Assembly: GCA_002450035.1 (NCBI GenBank)
Contig: DJYF01000056.1
Coordinates: 1 to 56,944 of the forward strand
DNA length: 56,944 bases
From: Caryophanales bacterium UBA6985
GTDB taxonomy: Bacteria; Bacillota_I; Bacilli_A; RF39; UBA660
Direction: 5' to 3'
Shown: positions 13,185 to 46,762 of the stretch, piece after piece
Layout: each line of letters begins with the position of its first letter
Numbering within the stretch: the first letter of the stretch is position 1
Notes under the pieces: model-generated
What the model was told of the DNA's origin: nothing
Database searches by the model: none
What the model saw: the letters and a program-made list of their open reading frames with translations, nothing else
Position numbers and translations under genes: made by a program

Positions 13185-13190
13185 ATTTCA

Positions 13191-13390
13191 AGAAATCGAA
13201 GAGGAAAGACGAGATTTAATAAGATAATTTATAGAGAGTTCATGGTTGGTGTAAATGAATAAGGACTTATTAAGTTACTACTTTCTAAGAGAGTTAATAA
13301 ACTCCGGGGGAACTCGTTAAAATTTAATCAAGTTAAATAAAGGGATGGTACCGTGCGTTATGCACTCCTTAGGTATCATTCCTTTTTTTA
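13191..13390 (+). promoter_or_regulatory. T-box leader, threonine specific
   Basis: A canonical tRNA-sensing leader. AGAGAG (13233-13238) and GGTTGGTG (13244-13251) are the distal Stem I motifs. TTAATAAG pairs with CTTATTAA, and the internal loop below it carries ACT (13277-13279) followed by A, a threonine specifier codon. The T-box sequence AGGGATGGTACCGTGCG (13341-13357) contains the UGGUACC bulge, whose fourth base pairs with A73 of tRNA-Thr. Antiterminator: AAGGGA with TCCTT and GTGC with GCAC. The competing terminator pairs 13340-13352 with 13372-13384, followed by T-rich sequence. Uncharged tRNA-Thr should switch on the two genes downstream. Confidence 0.92.
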
Positions 13391-13409: not shown

Positions 13410-13841
13410 ATGAACTTAAGAGATGTTAATAGAAGAAGTGTTGTTTCAGTAGAAGTTTTTCTAAATGACTATGTATTACCTTATTATGGTAGTAGAATAA
13501 CCTCGGATGAAATGATAACCAAGTTAAAGAATTGTAGCCATCTAGATTTAGATGAACTAGAAATTCCAGGTGTTAAAAGATGCAGTGATGAATATGCACT
13601 AACCAATCCTTCAATTATTCTAGTTGGGGCAAAGGGAAGAGGACATAAAGGATATGAAATACATGGATACTATAGACCTTTTGATTTAATGAAAGAAGAA
13701 TACATAGAAGAAGGTTTAAGTGAAATTGAAGCGACTAATTTCTTATTAAGTGGTATGCGTGCACCTGAAGAAGATGATGTTTCATATAAAATATATTTTA
13801 GAGAAAAGAAAAGAAGAAAGAAAAAAGGAAAGAGGAATTAA
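13410..13841 (+). CDS. Uncharacterised protein in the T-box operon with thrS
   Basis: 143 residues from ATG 13410, which has AAGGAGG just upstream. No known domain. It has a central Gly-rich turn (ILVGAKGRGHKGYEIHGYYRP), an acidic stretch (KEEYIEEGLSEIEATNF) and a strongly basic C-terminal tail (REKKRRKKKGKRN) that could bind RNA. It lies between the threonine T-box and thrS and ends one base before the thrS ATG, so it is expected to be induced with ThrRS when charged tRNA-Thr is low. The basic tail may partly reflect purine-rich sequence carrying the thrS binding site. Confidence 0.75.
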   Translation: MNLRDVNRRSVVSVEVFLNDYVLPYYGSRITSDEMITKLKNCSHLDLDELEIPGVKRCSDEYALTNPSIILVGAKGRGHKGYEIHGYYRPFDLMKEEYIEEGLSEIEATNFLLSGMRAPEEDDVSYKIYFREKKRRKKKGKRN

Positions 13842-13842
13842 A

Positions 13843-15603
13843 ATGGTTAATTTTAAAGAAAATGAAGATTTATATAAATTAAATCATAGTTGTGCTCACT
13901 TAATGGCACAAGCAGTAAAACATTTATATCCAGATGCTAAGTTCTGGGTAGGACCTGTTATTGAAACTGGTTTTTACTATGATATGGATTTAGGAGATAA
14001 AGTTATTACTGAAGAAGACTTACCTTTAATAGAAAAGGAAATGAAAAAAATTGCTAAAGATGGTAAGAGAATAGTTAGAAGAGAACTTTCTAAAGAAGAA
14101 GCTTTAGAAATGTTTAAAGATGATCCATATAAATTAGATTTAATTAATAGAATGGATGAAGATAATACTGTTATTTCATGTTATTCTCAAGGAGACTTTA
14201 CTGATCTTTGTAGAGGTGGACATGTTGATTCAGTTAAAGAATGTAAAAATTTCAAGTTATTAAAGTTCTCAGGTGCTTATTGGAAAGGGGATTCTAATAA
14301 CAAGATGCTTCAAAGAGTATATGGGGTATGTTTTAGAACTCCTGAAGAATTAGAAGCACATTTAGCGGAACTTAAAGATGCAGAAGAAAGAGACCATAGA
14401 AAAATTGGTAAAGATTTAGGAATTTATATGATGTCTGAATTAGTTGGAAGAGGACTTCCAATGTATTTACCAAATGGATTTACTTTATGGAATTTACTTG
14501 AAGATTATATTAGAAAAGAAGAGTTAAAAAGAGGATACTTACACGTACAAACTCCTCCTTTAGGAAATGTTAACTTATATAGAACAAGTGGACATTTAGA
14601 TCATTATAGAGATTCAATGTTCCCAATTATGCAAGTAGAAGATGAAGAATATGTACTTCGTCCTATGAACTGTCCTCATCATATGGTTATGTATGGTAAT
14701 GACATTCATTCATATAAAGAATTACCAATTAGAATTGCTGAAGTTGCAAGAGATTGTAGATATGAATCAAGTGGTTCTCTAAAAGGTATTGAAAGAGTTA
14801 GAACATTCTGTCAAAATGACTCACATATCTTCTGTACTCCTGAACAAATTGAAGAAGAATTCAAGGGTGTAGTTGATCTAATTCTTGACACTTATAAAGT
14901 ATTTGGAATTAAAAATTATAGATTTGAATTATCTTTAAGAGATCCTGAAGATAAAGTTAAATATTTCCAAGATGATGAAATGTGGAATAATGCTGAAAAT
15001 AAACTTAGAGATGTATTAAATGATTTAGGAATTGATTATGTTGAAAAGAAAGGCGAAGCAGCATTCTATGGTCCTAAACTTGATGTTCAAGTTAAACCAG
15101 CTGTTGGTAATGAAATTACACTTTCAACTTGTCAATTAGACTTCTGTCTACCAGCAAAATTTGATTTAAAATATGTTGATAGTGATGGAAGTAAGAAAAC
15201 TCCAGTTGTAATTCATAGAGCCATCATGGGTTCAATTGATAGATTCATGGCATTCTACTTAGAAGAAACTAAAGGAAATCTTCCTTTCTGGTTAGCTCCA
15301 ATTCAAGTAGCTGTCCTACCAGTTAAGAATGAATATCATTTAGAATATGCTAATGAAGTATTAAATAAGTTAAAAGAACAAGGTATAAGAGTATCTCTTA
15401 ATGCAAGTGATGAAAAATTATCTTACAGAATGAGAGAAGAGCAAATAAGAAAAGTTCCTGTTATGTTAGTTCTTGGTAACAATGAAAGAGATGAAAGAAC
15501 TGTTACTTTAAGACTCCATGGTGAAGAACAAAAGAATATGAGTTTAGATGAATTCTTAAGCTATGCTAAAGATAAGAATGATTCTAAAGCTTTAGATTTA
15601 TAA
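13843..15603 (+). CDS. thrS: Threonyl-tRNA synthetase lacking the TGS domain
   Basis: 586 residues from ATG 13843 with AGAGGA upstream. The editing domain is present (HSCAHLMAQA near residue 15 and DLCRGGHV near 120, supplying the HxxxH and CxxxH metal/water site), followed by the class II catalytic core (MNCPHH, RIAEVARDCRYESSGSLKGIERVRTF, and HRAIMGSIDRF) and the anticodon-binding domain (APIQVAVLPV... VSLNASDEKLSYRMRE...VPVMLVLGNNE). The 60-residue N-terminal TGS domain of typical ThrRS is absent and there is no upstream sequence for it. It is controlled by the T-box leader. Confidence 0.95.
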   Translation: MVNFKENEDLYKLNHSCAHLMAQAVKHLYPDAKFWVGPVIETGFYYDMDLGDKVITEEDLPLIEKEMKKIAKDGKRIVRRELSKEEALEMFKDDPYKLDLINRMDEDNTVISCYSQGDFTDLCRGGHVDSVKECKNFKLLKFSGAYWKGDSNNKMLQRVYGVCFRTPEELEAHLAELKDAEERDHRKIGKDLGIYMMSELVGRGLPMYLPNGFTLWNLLEDYIRKEELKRGYLHVQTPPLGNVNLYRTSGHLDHYRDSMFPIMQVEDEEYVLRPMNCPHHMVMYGNDIHSYKELPIRIAEVARDCRYESSGSLKGIERVRTFCQNDSHIFCTPEQIEEEFKGVVDLILDTYKVFGIKNYRFELSLRDPEDKVKYFQDDEMWNNAENKLRDVLNDLGIDYVEKKGEAAFYGPKLDVQVKPAVGNEITLSTCQLDFCLPAKFDLKYVDSDGSKKTPVVIHRAIMGSIDRFMAFYLEETKGNLPFWLAPIQVAVLPVKNEYHLEYANEVLNKLKEQGIRVSLNASDEKLSYRMREEQIRKVPVMLVLGNNERDERTVTLRLHGEEQKNMSLDEFLSYAKDKNDSKALDL

Positions 15604-44676: not shown

Positions 44677-44704
44677 TTGAATTTTAATATATTTGTGTTA
44701 TAAT
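44677..44704 (+). promoter_or_regulatory. Promoter of the LOG-glyS unit
   Basis: TTGAAT (44677-44682), 16 bp, extended -10 TGT-TATAAT (44696-44704). It fixes the transcript start near 44711, so the leader before the terminator is only about 105 bases. Confidence 0.75.
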
Positions 44705-44710
44705 TCAGTT

Positions 44711-44820
44711 TATGAAGTGATGACGGGCTTGGAAACCTAACAGCTATATATAAACACTAGAGAACAAAGCATGGTGGAACAGCGGAATTTTTTCGCCCAT
44801 GCGTATTTGTTCTCTTTTTT
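44711..44820 (+). promoter_or_regulatory. Ultra-short T-box-like leader, probably glycine specific
   Basis: ATGGTGGAACAGCG (44771-44784) matches 12 of 14 bases of the T-box consensus AGGGTGGNACCGCG. GCATGG (44769-44774) pairs with CCATGC (44797-44802) and GCG with CGC, leaving the 7-base bulge UGGAACA (44775-44781); its fourth base A would pair with U73 of tRNA-Gly. AGAGAACAAA (44759-44768) pairs with TTTGTTCTCT (44806-44815) and T-run follows, giving a terminator. The downstream genes are a LOG-family gene and glyS. Canonical Stem I motifs (AGAGAG, GNTGGNG) are missing: only 48 bases precede the terminator, within which GGC (44726-44728) or GGA (44731-44733) could be the specifier. Confidence 0.6.
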
Positions 44821-44837
44821 ATTTTTAGGAGGAAAAA

Positions 44838-45380
44838 ATGAGAGTTTTTATTGGATGTTCTGCTAAAGATAGTATTCCTTTAGAGTTTAAAGAAGTAGCA
44901 TGTAAGATATCTACTATGCTTGCTCAAAGAGGAGATAAACTTGTTTTTGGTGGTAAAGAAACAGGAATGATGGGGAAATGTTATTTCACATTTAGATATG
45001 AAGGTTCTAAAGTTAAAGCTATAGCTGATATTACCAACGCTGAAAATGTTGATGGTATGGACCTTGATGCAAGCGAAATCACTTTAAATACATTTAAGAG
45101 AACTGAGTCAATATTTGAATCAAGTGAAGTTATTCTTATATTACCAGGTGGATTAGGAACTTTAAGAGAATTCTTCTCAATGTTAGATGAGAAGAGAACT
45201 AAAGGTTATGATAAACCAATTATACTTTTTAATTTTGAAAAGTATTATGATCCACTTTTAGAGTATCTAACTAAATGTTATAAAGTAAATTTTATTAGTA
45301 AAAAAGATTTAAAACTATTTGATGTAGTAACTGATGTTAAAACATTAGAAATGTACTTGAATAGGTTAGAGAGGAAGTAG
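44838..45380 (+). CDS. LOG-family (lysine decarboxylase-like) phosphoribohydrolase
   Basis: 180 residues. Rossmann-type fold with the family signature LPGGLGTLREFFSML near residue 102 (PGGxGTxxE) and GGKETGMMGK early. LOG proteins hydrolyse nucleoside 5'-monophosphates; the physiological substrate in bacteria is unclear. AGGAGG precedes the ATG. It lies between the T-box-like leader and glyS and ends five bases before glyS, so both would be induced when tRNA-Gly is uncharged. Confidence 0.85.
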   Translation: MRVFIGCSAKDSIPLEFKEVACKISTMLAQRGDKLVFGGKETGMMGKCYFTFRYEGSKVKAIADITNAENVDGMDLDASEITLNTFKRTESIFESSEVILILPGGLGTLREFFSMLDEKRTKGYDKPIILFNFEKYYDPLLEYLTKCYKVNFISKKDLKLFDVVTDVKTLEMYLNRLERK

Positions 45381-45385
45381 AAAAT

Positions 45386-46762
45386 ATGGCAAAAACAATG
45401 GATGAATTAGTTAATTTTTGTAAACAATATGGATTTGTATTCCAAGGAAGTGAAATATATGGAGGTCTTGCTAATTCTTGGGATTATGGTTCTCTTGGTG
45501 TAGAACTAAAAAATAATGTAAGAAAAGCTTGGTGGAAAAAGTTTATTCAAGAAAATCCTTATAATTATGGACTTGATGCTGCTATTATCATGAATCCTGA
45601 AGTATGGGTTGCATCTGGACATGTTGCATCATTTGCAGATCCACTTATAGATTGTAAGGCTTGTAAGGCAAGACATAGAGCAGATAAGTTAATTGAAGAG
45701 TTTACTCATGGAGAAGAAACAGGAGATGGATGGGATAATGAAAAATTAGAAGCATATATTAAAGAACATAATATTGCTTGTCCTAAATGTGGTAATCATG
45801 ATTTTACTCCAATTAGAAAGTTTAATTTATTATTCGAAACTCATACTGGTGTAACTGAAGATACTAAATCTACAGTTTATTTAAGAGGAGAAACTGCTCA
45901 AGGTATATTTGTTAATTTCTTAAATGTTCAAAGAACTATGCGTGCTAAAGTACCATTTGGTATTGGACAAACTGGTAAAGCATTTAGAAATGAAATTACT
46001 CCAGGTAACTTCACTTTTAGAACAAGAGAATTTGAACAAATGGAACTTGAATTCTTCTGTAAACCAGGCTCTGACCTTGAATGGCATAAGTATTGGAAAG
46101 ATTATTGTTTACAATTCCTAGAAGACTTAGGATTAACAGGAGAAAACTTAAGATATAGAGATCATAAACCTGAAGAGTTAGCTTTCTATTCAAAAGCAAC
46201 TACTGATATTGAATATATGTTCCCAATGGGATGGGGAGAACTTTGGGGTATTGCTGATAGAACTGATTATGACTTATCAGTACATCAAGAACACTCAAAG
46301 ACTGATATGAAATATTTTGATCCTGATACAAATGAAAAATATGTTCCTTATGTAATTGAACCATCAGTTGGTCTTGATAGATTAACTCTTGCATTATTAA
46401 ATGAAGCATATAAGGTAGAAGAATTAGAAGATGGAACTACTAGAGAAGTATTTAAAATACACCCATTCTTAGCTCCTTATAAAGTATGTGTATTACCTTT
46501 AATTAAGAAACTTCATAGTGAAAAAGCTAGAGAAGTATATGCTGAACTTGCAAAAGACTTTATGGTGTCATTTGATGAAGCTGGTAATATTGGTAAACGT
46601 TATAGAAGAGCTGATGCTGTTGGTACACCATTCTGTTTAACAGTTGATGATGAAACTATTAATAATGGTACTGTTACTTTAAGAGATAGAGATACAATGG
46701 AACAAGTAACATTAAAACTTGAAGAAGTTAAAGATTATATTGAAAATAAAATTAAATTCTAA
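45386..46762 (+). CDS. glyS: Glycyl-tRNA synthetase, dimeric eukaryote-like type
   Basis: 458 residues. Class II enzyme of the single-chain alpha2 type: MDELVNFCKQYGFVFQGSEIYGGLANSWDYGSLGVELKNN, RHRADKLIEE, the Cys zinc site CPKCGNHDF, FNLLFETHTG, RGETAQGIFVNF, FRNEITPGNFTFRTREFEQMELEFF (motif 2), VIEPSVGLDRLTLALL (motif 3), and the anticodon-binding domain APYKVCVLPL. In general annotation this type is also named glyQS. AGAGGAAG precedes the ATG. Confidence 0.96.
   Translation: MAKTMDELVNFCKQYGFVFQGSEIYGGLANSWDYGSLGVELKNNVRKAWWKKFIQENPYNYGLDAAIIMNPEVWVASGHVASFADPLIDCKACKARHRADKLIEEFTHGEETGDGWDNEKLEAYIKEHNIACPKCGNHDFTPIRKFNLLFETHTGVTEDTKSTVYLRGETAQGIFVNFLNVQRTMRAKVPFGIGQTGKAFRNEITPGNFTFRTREFEQMELEFFCKPGSDLEWHKYWKDYCLQFLEDLGLTGENLRYRDHKPEELAFYSKATTDIEYMFPMGWGELWGIADRTDYDLSVHQEHSKTDMKYFDPDTNEKYVPYVIEPSVGLDRLTLALLNEAYKVEELEDGTTREVFKIHPFLAPYKVCVLPLIKKLHSEKAREVYAELAKDFMVSFDEAGNIGKRYRRADAVGTPFCLTVDDETINNGTVTLRDRDTMEQVTLKLEEVKDYIENKIKF

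Follow-up and report, generated by a model that had tools for sequence, protein, structure and literature searches.

A compact leader in front of glyS

The locus studied here raises the question of whether a leader of about 110 nt, in which the long Stem I of a T-box is missing, can still act as a switch that senses tRNA-Gly. In the window (the whole stretch of DNA that was analysed, 56,944 nt; the features of this locus lie on its + strand), the leader occupies 44712-44820, just upstream of a LOG-family gene and glyS. The space between the end of the MgtC gene (44669) and the start of the LOG-family gene (44838) holds a promoter-like site and then the leader. The LOG-family gene (44838..45380; TIGR00730-like, PF03641; 92.9 bits, just below the TIGR00730 cut-off of 96.35) is the first in the operon and is followed by glyS (45386..46762), which encodes a dimeric glycine--tRNA ligase (NF003211, 667.5 bits against a cut-off of 312). 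We consider the leader very probably to be a T-box riboswitch that attenuates transcription and has a miniature Stem I; it would sense uncharged tRNA-Gly and control both the LOG gene and glyS. The place of a cytokinin-riboside phosphoribohydrolase-like (LOG) gene between a glycine T-box and glyS was an observation in its own right; LOG followed by glyS was seen in 18 of 96 matched loci, and the LOG gene would there fall under glycine control.

The leader belongs to a conserved family

A search for glyS gave at least 80 loci from named genomes. Among the 13 nearest Bacilli loci (L001-L012 and L016), 10 have a similar compact leader, standing either directly before glyS or with one or two genes in between; no such leader was seen in the other three (L003, L006 and L011). 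A model built from 11 leaders, that of the window included (R1), matched 37 of 395 genomes of a class sample and 13 of 392 genomes of a phylum sample at E≤1e-8. None of the genomes first met in these wider samples matched R1, all matches being already present in the order search. In these samples the element is confined to one order of uncultured Bacilli, which we take to be, probably, GTDB RF39. Within the family of the genome carrying L010, matches at E≤1e-6 were obtained in 90 of 117 genomes, and no fewer than three of them are long forms. The R1 tally at E≤0.01 (382/385) was inflated by the antiterminators of long T-boxes and was not used, and searches over 40 genomes were run with stricter filters, by which weak matches were lost.

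We read 101 matches, 96 of them distinct, which were mostly the best-scoring ones together with a chosen weak set rather than a random draw. By script and by eye, 92 of the distinct matches were ultrashort, three had a long Stem I, and one (L205:2753) was another T-box and was dropped. glyS lay within the downstream stretch available at 92 of the 96.

As the preliminary description had envisaged, related glyS leaders yielded a custom model, R2, that recovers the window leader. Its 37 members include neither the window leader nor the kin that share its lack of Stem III, and R1 was used to fit their alignment. R2 gave this held-out sequence 65.9 bits (E=1.8e-10), and a chance hairpin was rejected on this result. 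The next R2 matches in the window reached 17.9 bits (E 0.19) and 17.2 bits; the weaker of the two falls on the long T-box ahead of a thrS-like ORF. The held-out L010, L197, L206 and L199 scored 58-67 bits. Sixteen long glyS T-boxes, mostly clostridial, reached 29-54 bits, so the margin of the window leader over them is moderate; four ultrashort tyrosine leaders gave 37-54 bits and four long T-boxes of the order 34-42. These scores of long and tyrosine T-boxes are due to the shared antiterminator. The search with the curated T-box model was less favourable. RF00230 gave the window leader 19.0 bits against a cut-off of 93 (E 0.044 in a 501-base search), fitting it only by force, and no family reached its cut-off in an Rfam scan at the leader. 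Ten of ten ultrashort glyS leaders of relatives also stayed low with RF00230 (27.0-52.2 bits); the model assumes the long form.

Covariation was examined in three sets, in which the cells count sequences rather than events and the shuffle does not keep relatedness: double-sided cells numbered 26 against 7.6 shuffled in 11 sequences, 172 against 49.5 in 61 sequences, and 100 against 28.6 in 37 sequences without the window. Pairing in the set of 61 was 96.5% against 39-53% for slid structures, which were far lower in each of the three sets. The apical helix of Stem I had double-sided changes in all four of its pairs in each set, and 74-90% of its cells paired. Alignments A3 and A5, having been fitted to the model, are biased towards it; for A2 MAFFT was used, with a structure drawn by hand from the same rows. 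The preliminary description had staked its reading on conservation of the bulge and its flanking helices in related genomes, and both the held-out score and the covariation speak in favour.

Transcript start and an ultrashort Stem I

A strong promoter had been proposed to fix the transcript start near 44711. A promoter-like sequence, TTGAAT-16 nt-TATAAT with TG before the -10, is indeed present at 44677..44704, and the predicted start at about 44711-44712 would coincide with the foot of Stem I. As shuffles of the region contain such promoter-like matches at least as often (6.3 expected against 4 found), the weight for this start rests on spacing in relatives. A distance of 8-10 nt from the end of the best TATAAT-like hexamer to the element was seen in 29 of 61 members, and one of exactly 9 nt in 20 of those 29, the window being included in both counts; with this spacing the RNA would begin at the foot of Stem I; in the remaining 32 members the best -10-like hexamer lay elsewhere. 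An earlier start that would include a full Stem I was not indicated, and such a stem upstream of the element was rejected on the promoter position and the hexamer spacing in relatives.

The leader had also been described as having no canonical Stem I. The long form is missing, and the AGAGAG and GNTGGNG motifs were not seen by eye in the glyS leader, while they are present, as had been stated, in the thrS leader of the same window. A Stem I is nevertheless there, as a K-turn and a small hairpin of 30 nt in all (44716..44745). It consists of a closing stem AGU/GCU, a kink-turn-like GAUGA, a helix GGG/CCU (44725-44727/44736-44738, only 3 bp in the window) and an apical loop CUUGGAAA. The kink-turn of the window copy is imperfect, its 3' side being CA and not GA. 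The predicted specifier codon, GGA (Gly) at 44731..44733, stands in the apical loop with U before it and A after it.

The suggestion that GGA or GGC in the 5' hairpin serves as specifier was borne out in the relatives. The apical loop of all 92 ultrashort members carries a glycine codon, matching the downstream gene: GGA in 72, GGC in 18 (one, in L210, read by eye), GGU in 2 and GGG in none. The codon is followed by A in 90 members and by G in 2; the U before the codon was favoured by the search pattern and is not an independent count. The codon follows the gene, with glycine codons before glyS and UAC mostly before tyrS.

Three glycine T-boxes with a long Stem I (L201, L204 and L208) were met in the same family as the ultrashort ones. 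They begin with GAUGA and end in GGAAC..GAGC/GAGU as the short form does. Between these ends they carry a distal arm, which points to an origin of the short form by loss of the arm; the long forms are possibly the ancestral state.

The T-box bulge and its predicted tRNA partner

The antiterminator/discriminator domain spans 44769..44802. Helix A1 (GCAUGG/CCAUGC, 44769-44774/44797-44802) and helix A2 (GCG/CGC, 44782-44784/44794-44796) flank a 7-nt bulge (44775-44781) of the UGGN-A-C-C type, the UGGAACA of the window being one base off the ACC end. The sequence matches 12 of 14 positions of the T-box consensus, which we take to be AGGGUGGNACCGCG. This anatomy had been noted before and proved right in the points checked. 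The MFE fold had a z of -2.95, and 4 of 200 shuffles folded equally well. The base of A2 is G.U in 54 of 61 members and G-C in 7, as in the window; AA precedes A1 in 94 of 95.

The bulge base A had been said to suit a tRNA-Gly with U73. We searched 14 related genomes for tRNA-Gly by pattern and then with ARAGORN. tRNA-Gly(UCC) was found in eight genomes (G001, G007, G009, G013, G041, G375, G004 and G010) and tRNA-Gly(CCC) in two (G037 and G008); the patterns found no tRNA-Gly in G002, G005, G012 and G098, the one match in G002 not being a tRNA according to ARAGORN. All of the printed genes, six UCC and one CCC, end in an encoded U73-CCA, so that the relatives' tRNAs agree with the claim and UGGA is complementary to the end of the tRNA. 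One genome with a GGC specifier (G004) also has a tRNA-Gly(GCC) ending in UCCA. In three others with a GGC specifier (G008, G037 and G041) tRNA-Gly(GCC) was not found with a narrow pattern that missed the gene of G004 too; as this pattern gave nothing useful across the 14 genomes, absence elsewhere means nothing.

The linker and a sub-form without Stem III

No Stem II and no Stem III were found in the window leader; a Stem III, which in T-boxes is marked by RRRxG and AA flanks, is present in most relatives read. The linker of the window (44746..44759) has a conserved AUAUA at its 5' end, positions 1-4 being A in 81, T in 89, A in 87 and T in 83 of 95. This conserved start is perhaps a contact that stands in for Stem II. 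There are 23 nt between Stem I and A1 in the window. The script assigned a Stem III to 92 matches, and in 72 of these the unpaired path from Stem I to A1 measured 17-20 nt; in the four matches that it left without one the path was 20-26 nt. A path so nearly constant would fit a tRNA-length ruler.

The window leader, L197, L199 and L206 make up a sub-form without Stem III, with AAAG[CU][AG]UGG-UGGAACA-G[CU]G in common. Their GlyS proteins are 64.6% (L197), 74.0% (L199) and 63.5% (L206) identical to that of the window. The A1 pairs of the sub-form change in step (CAUGG/CCAUG, UAUGG/CCAUA and UGUGG/CCACA). The same holds for the terminator strands, which are GAGAACAAA/UUUGUUCUC in the window and AAGACCAAA/UUUGGUCUU in L206. 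Three leaders (L010, L198 and L202) lack Stem III in other ways. The script called weak A/T hairpins in L010, L206 and L198, all of which were judged by eye to be without Stem III.

A predicted terminator that encloses the antiterminator

The terminator expected within about 110 bases of the start was found as a hairpin with a U run. Its base pairs GAGAACAAA (44760..44768), the stretch that in most relatives read forms Stem III, with UUUGUUCUC (44806-44814), which is followed by the U tract (together 44806..44820). This lower helix is collinear with the antiterminator and has a predicted energy of -12.2 kcal/mol. A simple terminator scan, which takes only loops of 3-8, did not list it.

In relatives, the strand before the U run paired with the stretch between Stem I and A1 at -8 kcal/mol or better in 58 of 61 (median -12.2). 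When the stretch was shuffled, the mean was -4.4 kcal/mol and 5.6% reached -8. Terminator pairs mismatched between members had a mean of -7.7 against -12.1 for their own, and 43% were at or below -8; the mismatched pairs also score well because the member sequences resemble one another. The enclosing helix was stronger than an exclusive hairpin in 92 of 92 ultrashort members (medians -11.7 against -1.5) and reached -8 or better in 86 of them. The gap from A1 to the U run had a median of 14 nt (8-26) in these 92, which we judged too small for a classical T-box terminator.

The members with Stem III use one strand for Stem III and for the lower helix of the terminator. The switch in them would thus lie between Stem III and terminator, with the antiterminator helix compatible with both; in the window copy antiterminator and terminator coexist, and exclusivity is not built in. 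According to the accessible part of PMC7583486, the 3' strands of A1 and A2 become the 5' strand of the terminator; here, by contrast, the terminator encloses the antiterminator. The collinear arrangement had been called unusual. It is real, and it is not unique: an enclosing terminator made with the Stem III stretch was also seen in 10 of 16 long glyS T-boxes, mostly clostridial (L013, L014, L015, L017, L023, L026, L035, L050, L057 and L059), so the ultrashort form is not alone in this topology. This count is approximate (the 16 lie between L013 and L072), the script having misplaced the antiterminator end in L030, L032, L035 and L072. A comparison of exclusive and enclosing helices in the long T-boxes of the order included wrong-strand matches and was set aside.

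Proposed mechanism and alternatives

From these features we infer tRNA binding, readthrough and a tether logic as follows. The nascent RNA would begin at the foot of Stem I, and the apical loop would present GGA to the UCC anticodon of the tRNA, while UGGA of the bulge could pair with the UCCA end. Uncharged tRNA held at both sites would use up the linker, so that the strand just 5' of A1 could not pair with the strand before the U run, and readthrough would result; in most relatives that strand would meanwhile be held in Stem III. A charged tRNA would be barred from the bulge, the lower helix could then zip up under the still-formed antiterminator helix, and transcription would stop.

Several features of the window copy count against this account, namely the lack of Stem III, the G-C at the base of A2, the 3-bp GGG/CCU helix and the imperfect kink-turn. 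One alternative is a decayed T-box, which has kept its shape, has lost Stem III and is left as a constitutive partial terminator that lowers glyS expression. The absence of a Stem III held to be indispensable in the part of PMC7583486 available, the bulge UGGAACA, the A2 closed by G-C and the strong lower helix at -12.2 kcal/mol would all agree with such a history. The same Stem-III-less sub-form occurs, however, in L197, L199 and L206, whose GlyS proteins are only 63-74% identical to that of the window, and its A1 and terminator partners have changed in step around an intact codon loop. Since decay is unlikely to keep these, we regard decay as unlikely.

In another reading, the apical loop UGGAA would be a second T-box bulge, pairing with the 3' end of the tRNA (UCCA) and not with its anticodon. 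In 72 of 92 members the loop has a UGGA that is complementary to UCCA; GGC in 18 and GGU in 2, however, suit glycine codons and not U73, the tyrosine leaders carry UUAC in that loop, and in the three long-Stem-I relatives the same GGA stands a short way ahead of the closing GAGC/GAGU. On the codon tallies and the UAC of the tyrosine leaders, this second acceptor-end site was rejected as very improbable. It is scarcely credible that the element is a simple attenuator or the terminator of the upstream MgtC gene with a T-box likeness by chance. It does stand directly after that gene, where a terminator could serve both; against this are the promoter-like site that separates the two, the held-out E=1.8e-10, the covariation and the glyS genes downstream of 92 of the 96 matches.

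Relation to known T-box classes

Judged from its sequence features, the element would work like a T-box, and it very likely descends from T-boxes. The three long-Stem-I relatives, which share its ends, place its kinship with T-boxes proper.

Four T-box classes are distinguished in the accessible part of PMC10482949: I and II have a long Stem I with an IDTM, III has a short Stem I with an apical codon and requires Stem II, and IV is intermediate, III and IV being mostly translational. tRNA binding is boosted there by an elbow-binding motif, by Stem II or by both. The part of PMC7583486 consulted adds that transcriptional T-boxes generally need a long Stem I with an elbow-binding motif, and that the GGC-GCC pairing lets glycine forms dispense with Stem II.

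Compared with class II as these parts of PMC10482949 and PMC7583486 present it (the B. subtilis glyQS type), the ultrashort leader has in common a glycine specifier, the lack of Stem II, a single-stranded linker, the UGGA bulge, a Stem III in most members, predicted transcriptional control and a place before a glycyl-tRNA synthetase gene. It differs in a 30-nt Stem I of K-turn and hairpin, with no room for the distal double T-loop (IDTM), in a codon that lies in the apical loop and is mostly GGA rather than GGC, and in the enclosing terminator. With class III (Actinobacterial ileS), as given in the same sources, it shares the K-turn, the short Stem I and the codon in a small apical loop; in contrast to that class, it has neither Stem II nor a IIA/B module, is specific for glycine, occurs in Bacilli and carries a transcription terminator, a hairpin and U run being predicted in the window and its relatives where class III control is mostly translational. 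The long glyS T-boxes, mostly clostridial, differ in their long Stem I and share the enclosing terminator in 10 of 16. As the leader lacks one defining feature of each class tested (II and III), we place it as a new T-box variant.

In the literature searched, most subscription papers lying outside reach, no description was found that combines a short Stem I, the lack of Stem II and a terminator. The idea of a minimal or novel tRNA-responsive element gained support in substance from conservation, covariation and codon identity. We suggest tentatively, and leaning slightly against it ourselves, a fifth T-box architecture that is transcriptional, lacks IDTM and Stem II and has a sub-form without Stem III. 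Its switch would be a tether and not an exclusive antiterminator: a tRNA across codon loop and bulge would use up the near-fixed linker, and the helix below A1 could not close. Glycine T-boxes that naturally lack IDTM and Stem II, and in one sub-form Stem III as well, would make the published rules on these elements directly testable with an RNA of about 100 nt and could be a compact tool for sensing tRNA charge. They also give an idea of how T-boxes become smaller, and bring to light a group of switches missed by the curated Rfam cut-off.

Tyrosine leaders and other T-boxes

Leaders with an ultrashort Stem I were also met for tyrosine (L276-L287, L293, L143-L146 and L152), with UAC in the apical loop, a IIA/B-like GCGUUAA module and no Stem II. 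They belong to the same order and resemble the glycine leader in their miniature Stem I, but keep the GCGUUAA module and a Stem III, neither of which is present in the glycine leader of the window. The set was first found as RF00230 hits of about 120 nt. By eye, these leaders stand mostly before tyrS-like genes and in a few cases before HAD-like or other genes; L143, L146 and L152 were confirmed before tyrS. Of the 30 loci of the tyrosine model R3, 28 were printed, 13 of which were ultrashort with UAC, 10 of these standing before tyrS-like genes by eye (L276 and L278 being the same as L143 and L152, which had served for training). R3 has a poor RNAalifold structure and catches long T-boxes too, so its 62/117 does not give the number of ultrashort leaders.

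Long T-boxes with UAC-like specifiers were seen before DeoC-like genes, named by eye (L292, L294, L295, L296, L298, L300 and L302); deoxyribose-phosphate aldolase (DeoC) is an odd target for a tRNA-Tyr switch. The window itself has a long T-box at 13190-13372, with AGAGAG and GTTGGTG, upstream of a thrS-like ORF at 13750-15603 (named by eye). It scores 65.1 bits, below the RF00230 cut-off, and an ATG at 13410, preceded by GGAGG, lies between this T-box and the ORF.
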